From Bacteroidia bacterium (GTDB lineage: Bacteria; Bacteroidota; Bacteroidia; CAIKAF01), in assembly GCA_016742095.1 (NCBI GenBank), contig JACVCJ010000003.1:75250-139249 (forward strand): a stretch of 64,000 nucleotides of DNA. Direction: 5' to 3'. The position numbers and the translations under genes are program-made. This document shows, one piece after another, positions 6,193-12,553 of this stretch; the first letter of the stretch is position 1; every line of letters starts with the position of its first letter. Under the pieces are notes generated by a model. The model had not been told where the DNA came from and made no database searches. It was given only the letters and a program-made list of their open reading frames with translations.

Positions 6193-7194
6193 TTACAGTT
6201 TACTGATCTCGAACGTGGGATATCCTTTTTCACCCTGGGCATTTACAAAGCTCAGGAAGCGCATTTTGTAGTACTCGCCTTTACGGTCGCGCACCATATA
6301 CACGTAGGGTTCTATTTCGTAGGTCTGGGTATCGAAATTGAATTTCTTCCAGTTGTAGCCCATGGCGTTCAGGTGCGGGTTGAAAGTATAGGAGGCCAGG
6401 GTAGCCGAAGTTACCTGCTCAAAAGCGATATTGCCTGAATCCACCGCGGCTTCCATGTTGCCGTAGGCATTGAACAGGATGCCGTTCACGTTGTACCACT
6501 CAAAGTCGATGCCGTTGGCGTAATAGGCACGGTCGGTGTACTGGGTAAAGATCAGGTCGAAGGTATTGCGCATCGGCTCTATGTTCACGAATTTTCCGCC
6601 GTCCTTAAAGCTAAAGAACATAAAGTTGTAATCGCTGTTCTTGTGTACGCTGAAGGTCTTTACGCCGCTGCCGTTCAGTTCGGCCACCTCAAAGCTGTAA
6701 CTGTCGCTGCTGCTGTTCAGCATTTTTATCTTTTTATAACCAATAGGATTGGCCAGGGTGGTTACGCCCAGGTCCAGGATATGTACCTTATCGCGGTTGC
6801 TGCTGGACGATCTGATGTCCATGGCAATACCTTCGGCAAGTTCATAATCGTCGTAACGCCAGTCGCTTTCAACGGTCGGCACGGACGAAGCCAGGCTGAT
6901 ATCGGTATCCTGTGTGATGTATACCCGCATCTTTTTGGCGCTGTTGATCTTGGCATCCCAGTCGCCCGCTACCACGTTCGAAAAAGACAGGTCCCAGTTC
7001 TCACGGTGGTTCTCGCCTACAAAGGAATTCGTTTCCATGTCGTAGTACACCTGCATGGAATAATCACTTTTGGTGGCCGCCGTATTGGTAATACCTGTGA
7101 GCGGTTTGTAATCTACGGGTTTGTCTTCTTTAAAGCAGGAGCTGAAGAGCAGTACGCCCGAAGAGATCAGGATTATATTGCGGAATGCTTTCAT
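6193..7194 (-). CDS. HmuY-like heme-binding lipoprotein
   Basis: A 333-residue lipoprotein: residues 1-20 are a signal with lipobox LFSSC (Cys20). The C-terminal two thirds (about 150-333) match the HmuY fold family, with the stretches FMFFSFKDGG, FDLIFTQYTDR, MGYNWKKF and YYKMRFLSF. HmuY proteins of Porphyromonas bind heme at the cell surface and hand it to the TonB receptor HmuR. Here the gene overlaps the preceding TonB-receptor gene by 4 nt (ATGA), as expected for partners. A second HmuY-like protein is encoded at the head of the same operon. Some relatives bind ligands other than heme, so the ligand is inferred. Confidence 0.85.
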   Translation of the reverse strand: MKAFRNIILISSGVLLFSSCFKEDKPVDYKPLTGITNTAATKSDYSMQVYYDMETNSFVGENHRENWDLSFSNVVAGDWDAKINSAKKMRVYITQDTDISLASSVPTVESDWRYDDYELAEGIAMDIRSSSSNRDKVHILDLGVTTLANPIGYKKIKMLNSSSDSYSFEVAELNGSGVKTFSVHKNSDYNFMFFSFKDGGKFVNIEPMRNTFDLIFTQYTDRAYYANGIDFEWYNVNGILFNAYGNMEAAVDSGNIAFEQVTSATLASYTFNPHLNAMGYNWKKFNFDTQTYEIEPYVYMVRDRKGEYYKMRFLSFVNAQGEKGYPTFEISKL

Positions 7195-9425
7195 TTTGTA
7201 AATGTGTATTTAACCGATACGGCAAAGGTACGTCCGTAGCTCTGCGGAAGCGAACCCGTAGCTCCGCTGTGTACACCGGATGACTGGGAGCCCGACTGCA
7301 GTACATTGGTCACATTGAACAGGTTCTTGCCGTACACCCCGATCAGCAGGCTTTCTTTAAAGAAGCTTTTCTGCAGGCTGAGGTCCAGGGTATGAAAATC
7401 GTGCAGTTTGCCCTGGCGCACCGTATTTTCTCCGTCGGTATAGAAGAAAGGCGCGGCACCGGTGTATTTATAGAATGCCGAAGCGGTGAGTTTCCATTTG
7501 GGAACGGTATAGCTTACGTTCAGGCGGCCTTCGGGCGTAAACAGGAAACGGTCGGGATTATTGTCCGCACCCGGGATGGCCGTGTTGATGCCTACGTACG
7601 ATCCGCCGGCCTGTACGTTCAGGTTACGGTAACTGAAGGTAGACGTAAGATTGAGGCCCGTACTCTGGAAACGGCCAATGTTCACGTTCTGGTAAATAGG
7701 TTGTGCCCCGGGCGCAATGGAATCGGTATAGGCCAGGGTGATGCGGTCGCGGATATTGTTGTAGAATATGCTGGGTTCCAGCGTAAAGGCATAGCGCTTC
7801 TTGTTCATTTTAAAGGTGAGCATGAACAGGAAATTATCCGAGTTCTCGGCCTTCAGTTTCTCGTTACCGATGATGTAGTGGTTTACGTCGATGAACTCAA
7901 AATACAGCTCTTTGATGTCCGGCGCCCGGAAGCCGCGGCTCCAGGTAAAGCGCATGGTCACATATTTATGCGGCTTGTACATGGCGCTGAACGAGGGGAT
8001 CGGCGGGGCTTTGTAGCGCGTATTGTAGCCGTAGCGGAAACCCGGTTTCAGCGTAAGTTTGCCCCAGGCCGTGTATTCTGCCGAAGCGAACAGGGCATAA
8101 TCGCCTATGTTCTGCGTGGTATCTTTAATGCGCAGACCTTTACCCCAGTCGTGGCTCAGGTCGTAACCCACCTGTACGTTCAGTTTTTCTGAAGAGCTTA
8201 CATAGGTATAGATACCGCGGGACATGATCTGCTGAAACGCGTCGAAGGTACTGTCGGTAATACTGCGGTCCAGGGTCACCAGGTCTTTCAGCACCACATC
8301 GCGCTGGCGTACAAAACCGTTGTGGGCCAGGGTTACGTCCAGGTTGTGACGCTGTTTGATGGAACCCTGCAGGAAAACAGCATTGCTGTAACGCTGCGTG
8401 GTGTAATATTCGTCGAGTGCGGCCACGTTAAAGGGCGCAATGGGCTGGCCTTTGTTCTCCACTTTTTCGTGGAAATAATTGCCCTGGTAACGCAGAGTAA
8501 GCCCTTTAAAGGTGTAGGAATAGGAAAGTCCGCCAAAGACCTGGCGCTTGGGCTTCCACTGCAGGGTACGTCCGGTGAGGGTATCGGGGTTGAACCCGTC
8601 GAAGAAATAACGGCCGCCGTCGGCACGGAAGCTGTGTTTCTTTTTGCGGTAGCTTACAAAAGCATCGGCATTGTAGCGGCCCACGGTCTCGTAAAAGAGC
8701 GAAACGCCGGCCTGTACCTGATCTTTTTTCGGTTTTTTGGTAATTATGTTGATGATGCCACCCAGTGCATTGGTCCCGTATTGTACGGAGGCCGGGCCCT
8801 GGATCACTTCAATGCGTTCCACGTTCTGCATGTTGATCTGGCTCAGATCCACGTTCCCGTTCAGGCGGCCGATCACGGGTACGCCATCGATAAGGATCTT
8901 TACGTTTTCGCCGCCTACACCGCCCATGGTAAGCGATGAGCCCAGGATATTATCCTTGGAAAGGCGTATGTTCAGTTCGTTCGAAAGCACCTGGTCCAGG
9001 GAAACGGCGCCCTGCTGCTCGATACGTTTGGCGTCGATCACGGTCACTTTCTGCACCGAATTGTCCTGGCCCTGGGGCACAAAATTCGATGTAATGGTAA
9101 TGGGGTTCATGATGCCCGTGGCCGGATTCAGGCGCACGGTATTTTCTCCGGCCTGCAGCGTAATGCTCTGCTGGTATTTTTCAAAGGAAAGATGGCTGAT
9201 GGTCAGCTGTGCCGTTGTTCCCGGCTGAATGGCAATGGCGCACACCCCGTTCCCGTCGGTGGTACAGTAACTTTTGCGCTCATTCTGAACAAGGGTTACG
9301 TGCGCAGCAAAGACCGGAGATCCGTCCTGTGCACTCAACACCTTTAAAAGATTCTGGGCCGGAGCAGTTCCGACCCAGAAAATACCTGTAACACAATAAA
9401 CAATATAAAAAACTACGTTTTTCAC
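7191..9425 (-). CDS. TonB-dependent outer-membrane receptor, HmuR-like context
   Basis: A 744-residue TonB-dependent transporter. A signal peptide (about residues 1-24) is followed by a carboxypeptidase-regulatory-like beta domain (25-105), a plug domain (about 115-235, with ILIDGVPVIGRLNG and VERIEVIQGPASVQYGTNALGG), and a 22-strand beta-barrel to the C-terminus. Such receptors use TonB-ExbBD energy to import iron complexes, heme or cobalamin. Its place between two HmuY-like genes (5-nt gap upstream, 4-nt overlap downstream) points to heme or a related metal chelate. No TonB, ExbB or heme ABC genes are in the window. Confidence 0.92.
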   Translation of the reverse strand: MKNVVFYIVYCVTGIFWVGTAPAQNLLKVLSAQDGSPVFAAHVTLVQNERKSYCTTDGNGVCAIAIQPGTTAQLTISHLSFEKYQQSITLQAGENTVRLNPATGIMNPITITSNFVPQGQDNSVQKVTVIDAKRIEQQGAVSLDQVLSNELNIRLSKDNILGSSLTMGGVGGENVKILIDGVPVIGRLNGNVDLSQINMQNVERIEVIQGPASVQYGTNALGGIINIITKKPKKDQVQAGVSLFYETVGRYNADAFVSYRKKKHSFRADGGRYFFDGFNPDTLTGRTLQWKPKRQVFGGLSYSYTFKGLTLRYQGNYFHEKVENKGQPIAPFNVAALDEYYTTQRYSNAVFLQGSIKQRHNLDVTLAHNGFVRQRDVVLKDLVTLDRSITDSTFDAFQQIMSRGIYTYVSSSEKLNVQVGYDLSHDWGKGLRIKDTTQNIGDYALFASAEYTAWGKLTLKPGFRYGYNTRYKAPPIPSFSAMYKPHKYVTMRFTWSRGFRAPDIKELYFEFIDVNHYIIGNEKLKAENSDNFLFMLTFKMNKKRYAFTLEPSIFYNNIRDRITLAYTDSIAPGAQPIYQNVNIGRFQSTGLNLTSTFSYRNLNVQAGGSYVGINTAIPGADNNPDRFLFTPEGRLNVSYTVPKWKLTASAFYKYTGAAPFFYTDGENTVRQGKLHDFHTLDLSLQKSFFKESLLIGVYGKNLFNVTNVLQSGSQSSGVHSGATGSLPQSYGRTFAVSVKYTFTK

Positions 9426-9430
9426 TTTTC

Positions 9431-10717
9431 TTATTTACGGATCATCAGCTTTTCGGTTTTCACGGTAATACCGTCCGTAAGCTTCACTATATACATTCCG
9501 TTCGTAAGGTTGCTGAGGGGCAGCTGCCACTGGTTCATACCGGCGTTGGCTGCTTTGCTTTCGTTCAGTACGAGGCGGCCGCTCATATCCAGTACCTGCA
9601 GTTGCATTTTGGCGTTGTTCACCGAAGTGAATACGATCTGTGCGTTATCCGTAGCCGGGTTCGGGAACAGGGCCACAGCGGGGATGGTGCTGTTCGGCTC
9701 TTCTACCGATACGGTACCTACCTGGCGTTTTTCGAATTTGTATTTAGCACTGCCGGCACCTACAAATTTTGTAAAGCGCAGCTGCCAGATGTTACCCGGA
9801 ACGTCTTTGATAAAATAGCTCAGTGAATCGAACACAACCCACTGGAAGGTACTGTAATCAAGTTCTTTCCATTTATCACCCATTACGTTAATGTAATCGG
9901 CGCTCAGGGTATAATCCAGGTAGTCGGCATCGTCGGCAGGCAGACCTTCGGCTTTCACCAGTTCAATACCTTCGTTGGCAAGTACACCGGTTACGGCCAG
10001 ACCATAGTTCGGGCTCGCGGGGTCAGATTCTACGTAACGGGTAAACACCAGGTCGAAAGTGGTTTTATCCGGCTCGTCGTTTGTTGTCTGATCGGTAGCA
10101 AACGTATAATAAATAAAGTTTTTAGAGGTCAGACCCTGTTTAGAGATCGTTTTCGTCTGCTGGTTAGAACCATCCAGGTCTGCAACCCAGATCGTGTAGG
10201 CAGAAGTGGTAGCACCCAGGGAACGGATCCAGATACGTTTCCATACGCCTGCAGATGTTTTGAAAACAAATATTTTATTACCGATCACATCGTGTGTAGT
10301 GCTGTTGTATACACCCCAGCCATAGTTCGGGTGACCGGTGGCTCCGGTTTCGAAGGCTGAACCTGTCCAGGTCTCATCAGAATCGATGCAGGGCGTAAGG
10401 GTCGCTGTTGAACCTGTAGAGATACCGGTAGTATCAATGTTACCATACCATACACTGGTATCACCGCTGCATTTAAACAGCTGGGCACCGAACGCACCGT
10501 TAATACGGATAGACGCCGAATAAGGCGTACCTGTATAGAATTCCAGGTCACGTGTATTGAAGGTAACGGCTCCTACTTCGCCATTGGCCAGGCTGTAGAA
10601 TACTCTGTTTTTATAGTTGGGGGACGTACCGGTTGTTACAGAATCCTCAACCCAGGCCTGACCAAATAAACCATTCAGTGTTGCCAGAGCTGCAATCGAA
10701 AGTAGAACTTTTTTCAT
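9431..10717 (-). CDS. HmuY-like domain on a T9SS type A anchor
   Basis: A 428-residue exported protein: signal peptide 1-20 (ends LFGQ), HmuY-like region about 95-340, and a type A T9SS sorting domain about 350-428 (ALFPNPATDN ... LMIRK). The HmuY assignment comes from direct comparison with the lipoprotein two genes downstream: FIYYTFATDQ/FMFFSFKDGG, FDLVFTRY/FDLIFTQY, MGDKWKELDYS/MGYNWKKFNFD and WQLRFTKFVG/YKMRFLSFVN line up in the same order. It is the first gene of the operon, 5 nt before the TonB receptor. This suggests a T9SS-delivered surface heme-capture protein that supplements the lipoprotein; that role is inference. Confidence 0.85.
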   Translation of the reverse strand: MKKVLLSIAALATLNGLFGQAWVEDSVTTGTSPNYKNRVFYSLANGEVGAVTFNTRDLEFYTGTPYSASIRINGAFGAQLFKCSGDTSVWYGNIDTTGISTGSTATLTPCIDSDETWTGSAFETGATGHPNYGWGVYNSTTHDVIGNKIFVFKTSAGVWKRIWIRSLGATTSAYTIWVADLDGSNQQTKTISKQGLTSKNFIYYTFATDQTTNDEPDKTTFDLVFTRYVESDPASPNYGLAVTGVLANEGIELVKAEGLPADDADYLDYTLSADYINVMGDKWKELDYSTFQWVVFDSLSYFIKDVPGNIWQLRFTKFVGAGSAKYKFEKRQVGTVSVEEPNSTIPAVALFPNPATDNAQIVFTSVNNAKMQLQVLDMSGRLVLNESKAANAGMNQWQLPLSNLTNGMYIVKLTDGITVKTEKLMIRK

Positions 10718-10745: not shown

Positions 10746-10776
10746 CAAAGGTATACCTGCTATATTGGCTCTGCAA
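10746..10776 (-). promoter_or_regulatory. Promoter of the HmuY/TonB operon
   Basis: On the minus strand a TTG at 10776-10774, a 20-nt spacer and TACCTTTG at 10753-10746 match the Bacteroidota housekeeping promoter. The ATG follows at 10717, leaving a leader of about 20 nt. Confidence 0.75.
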
Positions 10777-10785
10777 TGCTCACTT

Positions 10786-10814
10786 TTAGGTAAATTGGTA
10801 CCTAAGATTAGGTA
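10786..10814. promoter_or_regulatory. Putative metal-responsive operator (DtxR/IdeR-like palindrome)
   Basis: A perfect 7-6-7 inverted repeat TTAGGTA-N6-TACCTAA (10786-10805), followed 2 nt later by a third TTAGGTA copy (10808-10814). It lies about 10 nt upstream of the -33 element of the heme operon. The half-site TTAGGT and its inverse ACCTAA are those of DtxR/IdeR-family iron-dependent boxes, although the spacing here is one base longer than the classical 19-bp box. A role in iron control is inferred from the operon it precedes. Confidence 0.5.
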
Positions 10815-10837: not shown

Positions 10838-10861
10838 AAAAAAAGAGCCCGGAGGCTCTTT
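10838..10861 (-). terminator. Terminator after the S74/T9SS gene
   Basis: Stem AAAGAGCC/GGCTCTTT (10842-10849, 10854-10861) with a 4-nt loop, followed on the minus strand by a T run. It lies about 27 nt past the stop at 10888. Confidence 0.88.
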
Positions 10862-10887: not shown

Positions 10888-12417
10888 TTACCTGGAAACG
10901 ACCATCTTTTTCGTATCCACCAGTTTTCCATCTACGATCAATGAATATACGTAAATGTCTGCGCTGAGTTCTCCGGCACTTACGCTAACAATATGTTCTC
11001 CCGGGCCTGCCAGGGGAATTTCTTTGAGTTTTACGCCGGCAATGCTATACAAAATGATGCGTGCTTCCGCTATACCTTCCGGTAAAAGACAGCGAATACG
11101 CGTACTTTCCCCGAAAGGATTCGGTTCATTCTGGAAAAGCAGGGCTTTTACGTCCTGTTCTGCATCATGTGTTCGTCCTGCATCCATCAGCGCACGCACC
11201 TGTTCCTCCAGTTTTTCAATACGCAGTTGCTGCTGCTCAATAATGTCCTGTTGTTCTTTGATCCCTTCAGTGAGGTATGGAATAATACCTGTATAGCGCA
11301 GCGACAAATAGCCGTCATCCCCCGTACTCACCAGGTGTGGCAACACTTTCTGTACGTCTTGCGCAATAAAACCCGAATGCTCTTTGTCATCAAAACGGAA
11401 TGCTTCAAAGCCGTCCTTTTTAAACCGGTAGGTTACCCCCGAAAGGCGACGGATCACCGAAAGTGCACTTTCGATAGGTACAATATCCTGCTTAAAACGT
11501 TTATCAGATCCTTCCGTAAGCGTGGTAGAACAATAAATACTGCCGTATACCTGTAAATTATAGCCCAAACTTGGGGCGCCTCCCACACCGAAATTACTGT
11601 TTGTGTATATACCGGTGGTGGTATATGCATTCAACTCCTGGTTACTGTTGAACCGCAGGTAATTGATACCATGTACCCCGTTATTGTTCATCAGCAGGTT
11701 CGTGGTCGCGGTGTGGTTTCCCAGGTTGTCCTTAAAAGAAGCCAGACTTACAGTATTTCCGCCGGAGATACTGAGATTATTTCCGCTGAGAGTAAGGGTT
11801 TGCATCAGTGGCGCAAGACTTACCGCGTTACCGTCCGAAATAGAAAGATTCGTACCGCTGAAGCTTAGTGTCTGGTTCGAAAGAGCCGGCAACGCCTGTG
11901 AAGAAAGCAGGCCGTTGGCGTCGGTCACTACCATACGGTTGCCTGTACCCGCCAGGGAAGCAATGCGCGTATCTCCGTTCACATGCAGCTTTGCAGACGG
12001 GTTTTGTATGCCAACCCCTACTTTGCCGTCCATATTCAGCTTAAGTACGGATATTACCGGGCTCGAATAGGTGGTGCTCACAAAATTATCCTCACTCAGC
12101 GAATACGAAGAGCGGAAGTCCATTCCCGGAACATTTTCGGCTGAAGGCGACGTAAGCAGATTCGACACTACAGACACATCCCACAGGTTCGAAATAAGGC
12201 TTTCCTCGTTTACAAAACTCGGCTGAATATTATTAATTCTCATATACCTGATGGAGCCGTATGGGGCGCCGAACGCGGTGGCATTACGGAATTCGAGTTT
12301 CGCTGCCGTCGGACTGGCGGTCCCGATCCCGGCATTCCCCGTAGAAGGAAATGTATTCTGGGCAATGAGCGTTGCATGGGTGAAGAGCGTTCCTGCAATC
12401 AAAATGTGTATTTTCAT
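10888..12417 (-). CDS. Tail-fibre-like protein with S74 chaperone domain and T9SS type A signal
   Basis: A 509-residue protein from the ATG at 12417; an in-frame ATG ten codons upstream (12447) is possible, but MKIHILIAGTLFTHATLIAQ is the better signal peptide. Residues about 30-295 contain fibre-like repeats (LSGNNLSISGGNTVSLA and relatives). A peptidase-S74/intramolecular chaperone domain starts at the SDKRFKQDI motif (cleavage-type Ser codon at 11506-11508) and includes HSGFIAQDVQKVLP. A short coiled coil (EQQDIIEQQQLRIEKLEEQV) follows, then a type A sorting domain from LFQNEPNPFG to MVVSR. S74 domains trimerise phage fibres and then cut themselves off; whether this one still cuts is unknown. 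Monocistronic, with its own terminator. Confidence 0.85.
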   Translation of the reverse strand: MKIHILIAGTLFTHATLIAQNTFPSTGNAGIGTASPTAAKLEFRNATAFGAPYGSIRYMRINNIQPSFVNEESLISNLWDVSVVSNLLTSPSAENVPGMDFRSSYSLSEDNFVSTTYSSPVISVLKLNMDGKVGVGIQNPSAKLHVNGDTRIASLAGTGNRMVVTDANGLLSSQALPALSNQTLSFSGTNLSISDGNAVSLAPLMQTLTLSGNNLSISGGNTVSLASFKDNLGNHTATTNLLMNNNGVHGINYLRFNSNQELNAYTTTGIYTNSNFGVGGAPSLGYNLQVYGSIYCSTTLTEGSDKRFKQDIVPIESALSVIRRLSGVTYRFKKDGFEAFRFDDKEHSGFIAQDVQKVLPHLVSTGDDGYLSLRYTGIIPYLTEGIKEQQDIIEQQQLRIEKLEEQVRALMDAGRTHDAEQDVKALLFQNEPNPFGESTRIRCLLPEGIAEARIILYSIAGVKLKEIPLAGPGEHIVSVSAGELSADIYVYSLIVDGKLVDTKKMVVSR

Positions 12418-12553
12418 AAATATAGATATTACACGATCTTTCCGCAATGCGAAAGCAGAGAGCCCTGCTTTTTACGTCAGGGGTGCATACTATTTATGAA
12501 AGAGGGGCTATGGCAAACGGTCTTCTCCGCAGAAGAAAACAGAAGGGTAAATT

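Follow-up and report, generated by a model that had tools for sequence, protein, structure and literature searches.

A Bacteroidia operon encoding paired tandem HmuY-like proteins, one with a T9SS sorting domain, and its probable role in heme uptake

The 64,000-nucleotide stretch of Bacteroidia bacterium contig JACVCJ010000003.1 analysed here (the window) carries an operon of three tightly packed genes on the minus strand (10717-6193) that encodes, in this order, an HmuY-like protein with a T9SS tail (gene 1, HYT), a TonB-dependent receptor, and an HmuY-like lipoprotein (gene 3, HYL). We consider it rather probable that this operon serves heme uptake, with HYT exported by the T9SS and the receptor loaded by HYL, and that the family of the host depends on imported heme. 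The original prediction of a TonB receptor lying between two HmuY-like genes, of which the lipoprotein gene closes the operon, was borne out for all three open reading frames and their positions.

Operon layout and tandem HmuY-like domains

The operon and its upstream region comprise the following features:
6193..7194, minus strand: HYL, a lipoprotein of 333 aa with two predicted tandem HmuY-like domains (PF14064, 63 bits)
7120..7137, minus strand: lipid-anchor Cys20 of HYL and the adjoining FKEDK, in agreement with the C-X-K-(D/E)2-X signal for export of surface lipoproteins
7191..9425, minus strand: TonB-dependent receptor of 744 aa with an N-terminal carboxypeptidase-regulatory-like domain (PF07715, PF00593, PF13620)
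7827..7931, minus strand: FRAP-His-NxxL heme-receptor box FRAPDIKELYFEFIDVNHYIIGNEKL in the receptor
9431..10717, minus strand: HYT, 428 aa, with a signal peptide, two predicted tandem HmuY-like domains and a type A T9SS sorting domain, found in 16/16 family genomes
9434..9670, minus strand: type A T9SS sorting domain of HYT, residues 350-428 (PF18962, Por_Secre_tail, 58.9 bits, cut-off 27; TIGR04183, 53.7 bits, cut-off 23)
9713..10222, minus strand: second HmuY-like domain of HYT, residues ~166-335, the part aligned with HYL by BLASTP
10223..10657, minus strand: first HmuY-like domain of HYT, residues ~21-165
10746..10776, minus strand: putative Bacteroidota-type promoter, TTG, 20 bases and TACCTTTG, read from the sequence against the known pattern
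10799..10814, minus strand: promoter palindrome TACCTAATCTTAGGTA, a probable regulator site identified from family HYT promoters and genome-wide counts
10838..10861, minus strand: terminator-like hairpin between the operon and the upstream gene, with the inverted repeat AAAGAGCC..GGCTCTTT followed by a T-run

The HYT and receptor genes are separated by 5 nt, and the receptor stop codon overlaps the HYL start codon in an ATGA. The known promoter pattern of Bacteroidota is TTTG/TAnnTTTG. Since a terminator-like hairpin and a promoter both lie ahead of HYT, the operon probably starts at this gene. The gene upstream of the operon (10888-12447, minus strand) encodes a product with a chaperone-of-endosialidase (Peptidase_S74) domain, a domain type that is frequent in phage tail proteins.

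HYT and HYL align at 30% over 174 aa (BLASTP, E 2e-15), and their family profiles are collinear over 282 columns (profile-profile alignment, E 5e-34), confirming that the first gene encodes an HmuY-like protein with a type A T9SS tail that is related to the lipoprotein. HYL matches Pfam HmuY (PF14064) well above the cut-off of 27 bits and is the sole match in the host genome. HYT of the window gave no match in the PF14064 scan at this cut-off, and HYT orthologs reached Pfam HmuY scores of 49 and 52 bits while also matching Por_Secre_tail above its cut-off.

The bodies of HYT and HYL are each well above the size of a classic HmuY. When the halves of each protein were compared as profiles, those of HYT matched each other with 94% probability (E 1e-7) and those of HYL with 95% (E 6.5e-8), against 2.8% (E 0.016) and 0.2% (E 0.27) for the respective reversed controls. 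Between the two proteins the halves correspond in order (N-N, E 6e-19; C-C, E 7e-40), and some relatives are matched by Pfam HmuY in two separate stretches. Because the halves align and double Pfam matches occur, HYT and HYL each appear to consist of two HmuY-like domains in tandem, so that the operon would encode four; this predicted architecture goes beyond what the original prediction had noticed. Neither protein has the single domain of about 200 aa found in the solved HmuY members, and both are best described, from their sequences, as HmuY relatives of different architecture. A classic locus of the same class (L251) encodes a single-domain HmuY of 222 aa, a receptor and a large chelatase-like gene product. 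HYT also has a conserved motif of its own, NYGWGxYN, and a longer first domain. A literature search of incomplete coverage found no account of double-HmuY proteins.

Structural claims are kept modest because the AlphaFold models are weak, with a mean pLDDT of 70 for HYT and 57 for HYL, both built from eight-sequence alignments only. HmuY-family structures head both fold-search lists at marginal E-values. In the fold check proposed with the original prediction, the eight best PDB matches all belonged to the HmuY family, at E-values of 0.0025 to 0.07, an outcome that favours the HmuY fold but falls short of proof. A PDB sequence search with HYT returned nothing above chance, and a search with the HYT profile returned only 8b6a (E 0.0014). 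In the HmuY members studied, heme is held by an axial ligand pair, either His/His or Met/Met, which varies among members. The HYT and HYL alignments lack an invariant His or Met pair, and their most conserved ligand candidates are His142 of HYT (83%) and Met89 of HYL (80%).

Predicted export and the case for heme as ligand

With a signal peptide (judged by eye), the PF18962/TIGR04183 sorting domain and a T9SS in the host genome (SprA, 2377 bits), HYT has the features of a type A cargo of this system. The lipid-anchor Cys of HYL is conserved in all 46 aligned HYL sequences; the rule for the C-X-K-(D/E)2-X export signal of surface lipoproteins was established in other Bacteroidota (PMC5080379). 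HYT and HYL are both predicted to lie outside the outer membrane, because the former has a T9SS domain and the latter a surface lipoprotein signal. Type A cargo of the T9SS can be either released or anchored (reviewed in PMC10202324), and sequence alone does not decide between the two for HYT.

A His flanked by a FRAP and an NxxL box is a mark of heme/hemoglobin receptors (PMC6449446, PMC9331221). This box, with its His, was found in 43 of the 50 receptors encoded near HYT or HYL. The receptor of the window scores 110 bits with the heme receptor model TIGR01785, below the cut-off of 317, and a close 106 bits, along its length, with a B12 receptor model whose cut-off is 600; it reaches the cut-off of no specific NCBIfam receptor model. 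As the box is present and the TIGR01785 cut-off is not attained, we regard the receptor as working in the manner of a heme receptor and do not file it in the NCBIfam heme receptor family.

Genes for a heme ABC transporter, in some cases accompanied by a HemS-type hmuS, occur at five orthologous loci (L129, L148, L152-L154), and the host genome encodes an ABC-type hmuTUV together with a HemS-type hmuS on another contig. Ferrochelatase (PF00762), the one pathway gene covered by this search, was matched in none of the 16 family genomes as against 8 of 14 control genomes; the genomes are mostly draft assemblies. The family genomes nevertheless encode many heme proteins. Given this lack of a ferrochelatase match, dependence of the family on imported heme is probable, and the gene content suggests that the whole family may be heme auxotrophic. 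HfpY of F. psychrophilum, a member of the HmuY family, binds heme (PMC9331221). On the basis of the receptor box, the orthologous loci, hmuTUV-hmuS, the missing ferrochelatase, the promoter palindrome described below and the HfpY precedent, the ligand is likely heme.

Two further observations concern gene neighbourhoods. Nine orthologous loci (L128, L132, L134, L136, L139, L142, L143, L145, L146) contain genes for a CbiX-type chelatase and/or PepSY-TM proteins, and the CbiX-type chelatase encoded in HYT operons of other families is lipoprotein-like; the recurrence of these genes possibly reflects removal of iron from heme outside the cytoplasm. In one genome, the receptor and HYL genes are separated by an insertion of FeoA and FeoB genes (L256, 9808-12163).

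Distribution, age and promoter palindrome

The order HYT, receptor, HYL is found in all 16 genomes of the host's family. In one of them, HYT is divided between two reading frames near a contig end (L038, 17-1290), reflecting a frameshift or an assembly error. Relatives of the HYT body were detected in 104 of 295 sampled Bacteroidia genomes and in 38 of 395 genomes of a wider phylum sample. Outside the family, all three genes (HYT, receptor and HYL) are present together at 28 of 38 HYT loci, a figure to be read with the fact that these loci were chosen from strong matches and the sampling favoured such matches; L130, L135 and L158 were left out of the locus tallies. Some genomes carry HYT without the receptor or HYL (L024, L025, L150, L151).

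In a tree of 107 proteins, all 52 HYT sequences fall on one side of a single branch (SH-aLRT 99), and the HYT of every genome is closer to other HYTs than to its own HYL. A recent duplication inside the host operon was rejected on this ground, HYT from 52 loci forming one clade. The formulation "duplicated within one operon" is accurate as a description and fails as an account of a recent or local event, and the idea of a local move onto a T9SS anchor was not upheld, the fusion being old and common to the phylum-wide HYT clade. As HYT forms one clade, the duplication must be old and the acquisition of the T9SS domain ancient; most simply, a tandem duplication would have come first and the split into HYT and HYL next, both before the families diverged. 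A unique fusion was likewise rejected, given the relatives among Bacteroidia and one published T9SS-tailed HmuY. The expectation that no such examples had been described therefore did not hold for the T9SS-tailed HmuY, which is widespread and already published for F. columnare (PMC9618737); the tandem pairing, however, is apparently new.

The promoter palindrome was found as TACCTAnnnnTAGGTA with at most one mismatch in 12 of 14 family HYT promoters (shuffles, 0.0). As for the other two family promoters, the site of L035 was found in the genome-wide search, and HYT of L038 lies at a contig end. Counts over 16 genomes gave 42 occurrences of the pattern and 10 of a control pattern, 14 of the 42 coming from one genome and partly from a repeat array. 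The pattern precedes c-type cytochrome operons resembling alternative complex III in the host genome and four others, a PD40 lipoprotein gene in several genomes and a heme oxygenase gene in two, and a version with two mismatches accompanies hmuTUVS of the host genome. The genes so linked may represent a possible heme regulon of the host's family. The sites noted in this connection, besides that of the window, lie at L183 (2725), L184 (5280), L199, L204, L208, L209, L211 and L212. Outside the family, TTTAGAATnATTCTAAA is present in 13 of 38 HYT promoters (at most two mismatches; 0.02 expected) and is probably an iron-regulator box.

The two inverted heptamers of the palindrome lie two bases apart, an arrangement that we take to be like that of NarL sites, and for this reason our guess is that its regulator is of the GerE/LuxR type. 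Seven loci, belonging to six families, have a gene for a GerE/LuxR-type regulator directly upstream of HYT, and in two family genomes a related gene lies beside hmuS:
L029, 12377-13033: regulator upstream of HYT
L032, 6673-7383: regulator upstream of HYT
L134, 14053-14691: regulator upstream of HYT
L139, 12593-13267: regulator upstream of HYT
L142, 4581-5228: regulator upstream of HYT
L144, 11852-12490: regulator upstream of HYT
L145, 11981-12700: regulator upstream of HYT
L172, 7281-7925: related regulator beside hmuS
L173, 9174-9827: related regulator beside hmuS
In the L029 and L144 regulators, the receiver domain is absent or weak in the Pfam scan.

Proposed mechanism, alternatives and known systems

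In the mechanism that we propose, HYT would leave the cytoplasm through Sec and cross the outer membrane by way of the T9SS. Whether displayed at the cell surface or shed from it, the protein would then capture heme there or beyond with its two HmuY-like domains. The surface lipoprotein HYL, with the same two-domain body, would sit at the TonB receptor, take over the heme and load the receptor, which would import it via TonB; its transfer into the cytoplasm would then fall to the HmuTUV ABC transporter and HmuS, whose genes lie elsewhere in the genome. Capture of heme by a T9SS-exported and a lipid-anchored HmuY-like protein around a TonB receptor, as originally envisaged, finds good support in conservation, gene neighbours, the receptor motif, the promoter site and the missing ferrochelatase, while heme binding by HYT or HYL, surface display of HYT and the hand-over between them are parts that we infer. 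The uptake part of the mechanism is fairly well supported, and the order of hand-over is our inference. Counted against this explanation are the lack of an invariant ligand pair, the TIGR01785 score and its near equality with the B12 receptor score, the genomes with HYT only, the weak AlphaFold models and the F. columnare phenotype given below. A broader proposal, that these operons form a phylum-wide heme uptake class in which paired double-HmuY proteins pass heme in two steps, constitute the main supply in the family that appears to lack ferrochelatase and share a regulator with genes for cytochrome c and heme oxygenase, is advanced tentatively, and we think it somewhat more apt to fail than to hold.

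Other readings differ in the part played by HYT. Its sorting domain might be cut off, so that HYT would act as a released, diffusible hemophore returning heme to the receptor or to HYL. Release is one of the two fates of type A cargo (PMC10202324), the F. columnare HmuY reportedly leaves the cell through the T9SS (PMC9618737), and some genomes have HYT without HYL at the locus; the pairing with HYL in every family genome suits a local relay, but would also suit a hemophore with its docking protein. We take release seriously while leaning against it. It is unlikely, in our view, that HYT binds no heme and is instead a T9SS-displayed adaptor for hemoproteins or for receptor docking, leaving HYL alone to handle heme: the failure of the window HYT to match Pfam HmuY, its lack of an invariant ligand pair, the NYGWGxYN motif and the longer first domain would fit such a role, yet its orthologs exceed the Pfam HmuY cut-off of 27 bits and, in every member of the family, the operon that HYT heads is linked to heme.

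Very improbable is a ligand other than heme, such as cobalamin, a porphyrin precursor or another tetrapyrrole or metal chelate. The match of the receptor to the B12 receptor model along its length and the CbiX-type chelatase genes at several orthologous loci point that way, but the B12 cut-off lies far above the receptor score, and the FRAP-His-NxxL box, the HemS-type hmuS and FeoAB genes at orthologous loci, the same promoter site at heme oxygenase and cytochrome c genes, and the missing ferrochelatase all argue for heme.

Among the closest known systems is the F. columnare HmuY (C6N29_01035), which like HYT joins an HmuY domain and a Por_Secre_tail in one protein and is reported to be secreted by the T9SS; its deletion caused no growth or virulence defect (PMC9618737). 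It differs, in a comparison made by description only, in being a single gene with neither a lipoprotein twin nor tandem domains reported. Porphyromonas gingivalis HmuY-HmuR likewise places an HmuY-family lipoprotein beside a TonB heme receptor, but its HmuY has a single domain of ~200 aa, the operon lacks a T9SS-tailed paralog and a CobN-type hmuS follows. Similarly, Flavobacterium psychrophilum HfpY-HfpR combines an HmuY-family hemophore, shown to bind heme 1:1, with a TonB receptor, although no T9SS-tailed twin is reported and the receptor comes first, then a small membrane protein and then HfpY (PMC9331221). The window operon is also not an Hmu operon (hmuYRSTUV), in which a CobN-type hmuS and hmuTUV follow hmuY and hmuR, as it consists of the receptor and two HmuY relatives only.

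A T9SS-secreted HmuY is thus already known from Flavobacterium columnare. What appears to be new is the double-HmuY architecture, its constant association with a lipoprotein twin across the phylum and the shared palindrome, together with the universal presence of the operon in a family whose genomes gave no ferrochelatase match and the resulting link to probable heme auxotrophy. Most work on HmuY hemophores has dealt with host-associated anaerobes and with pathogens of fish; the present case concerns largely uncultured Bacteroidota, in which a two-domain HmuY with a T9SS-exported twin emerges as a constant feature. Should HYT relay heme to HYL and the receptor, the operon would be a hemophore cascade whose members are paralogs sharing one fold. 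The constant presence of the operon in the family would be explained by the apparent lack of ferrochelatase, which would also predict a need for heme from neighbours.

A further parallel lies in the hmu operon of Porphyromonas endodontalis, which is headed by a T9SS type A gene, POREN0001_0445, of unknown function and beta-barrel-like prediction (PMC11208336). Here too a T9SS type A gene comes first, ahead of hmuY and hmuR, but its product has not been recognised as HmuY-like and hmuSTUV with CobN lies downstream, the comparison again being by description only. Its homologs PG0495 of P. gingivalis and PIOMA14_RS06105 of P. intermedia are T9SS proteins induced 87- and 104-fold, respectively, in low iron (PMC10434189). 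These T9SS proteins, strongly regulated by iron and found in Porphyromonas and Prevotella, are candidates for the same system and may be unrecognised equivalents of HYT.
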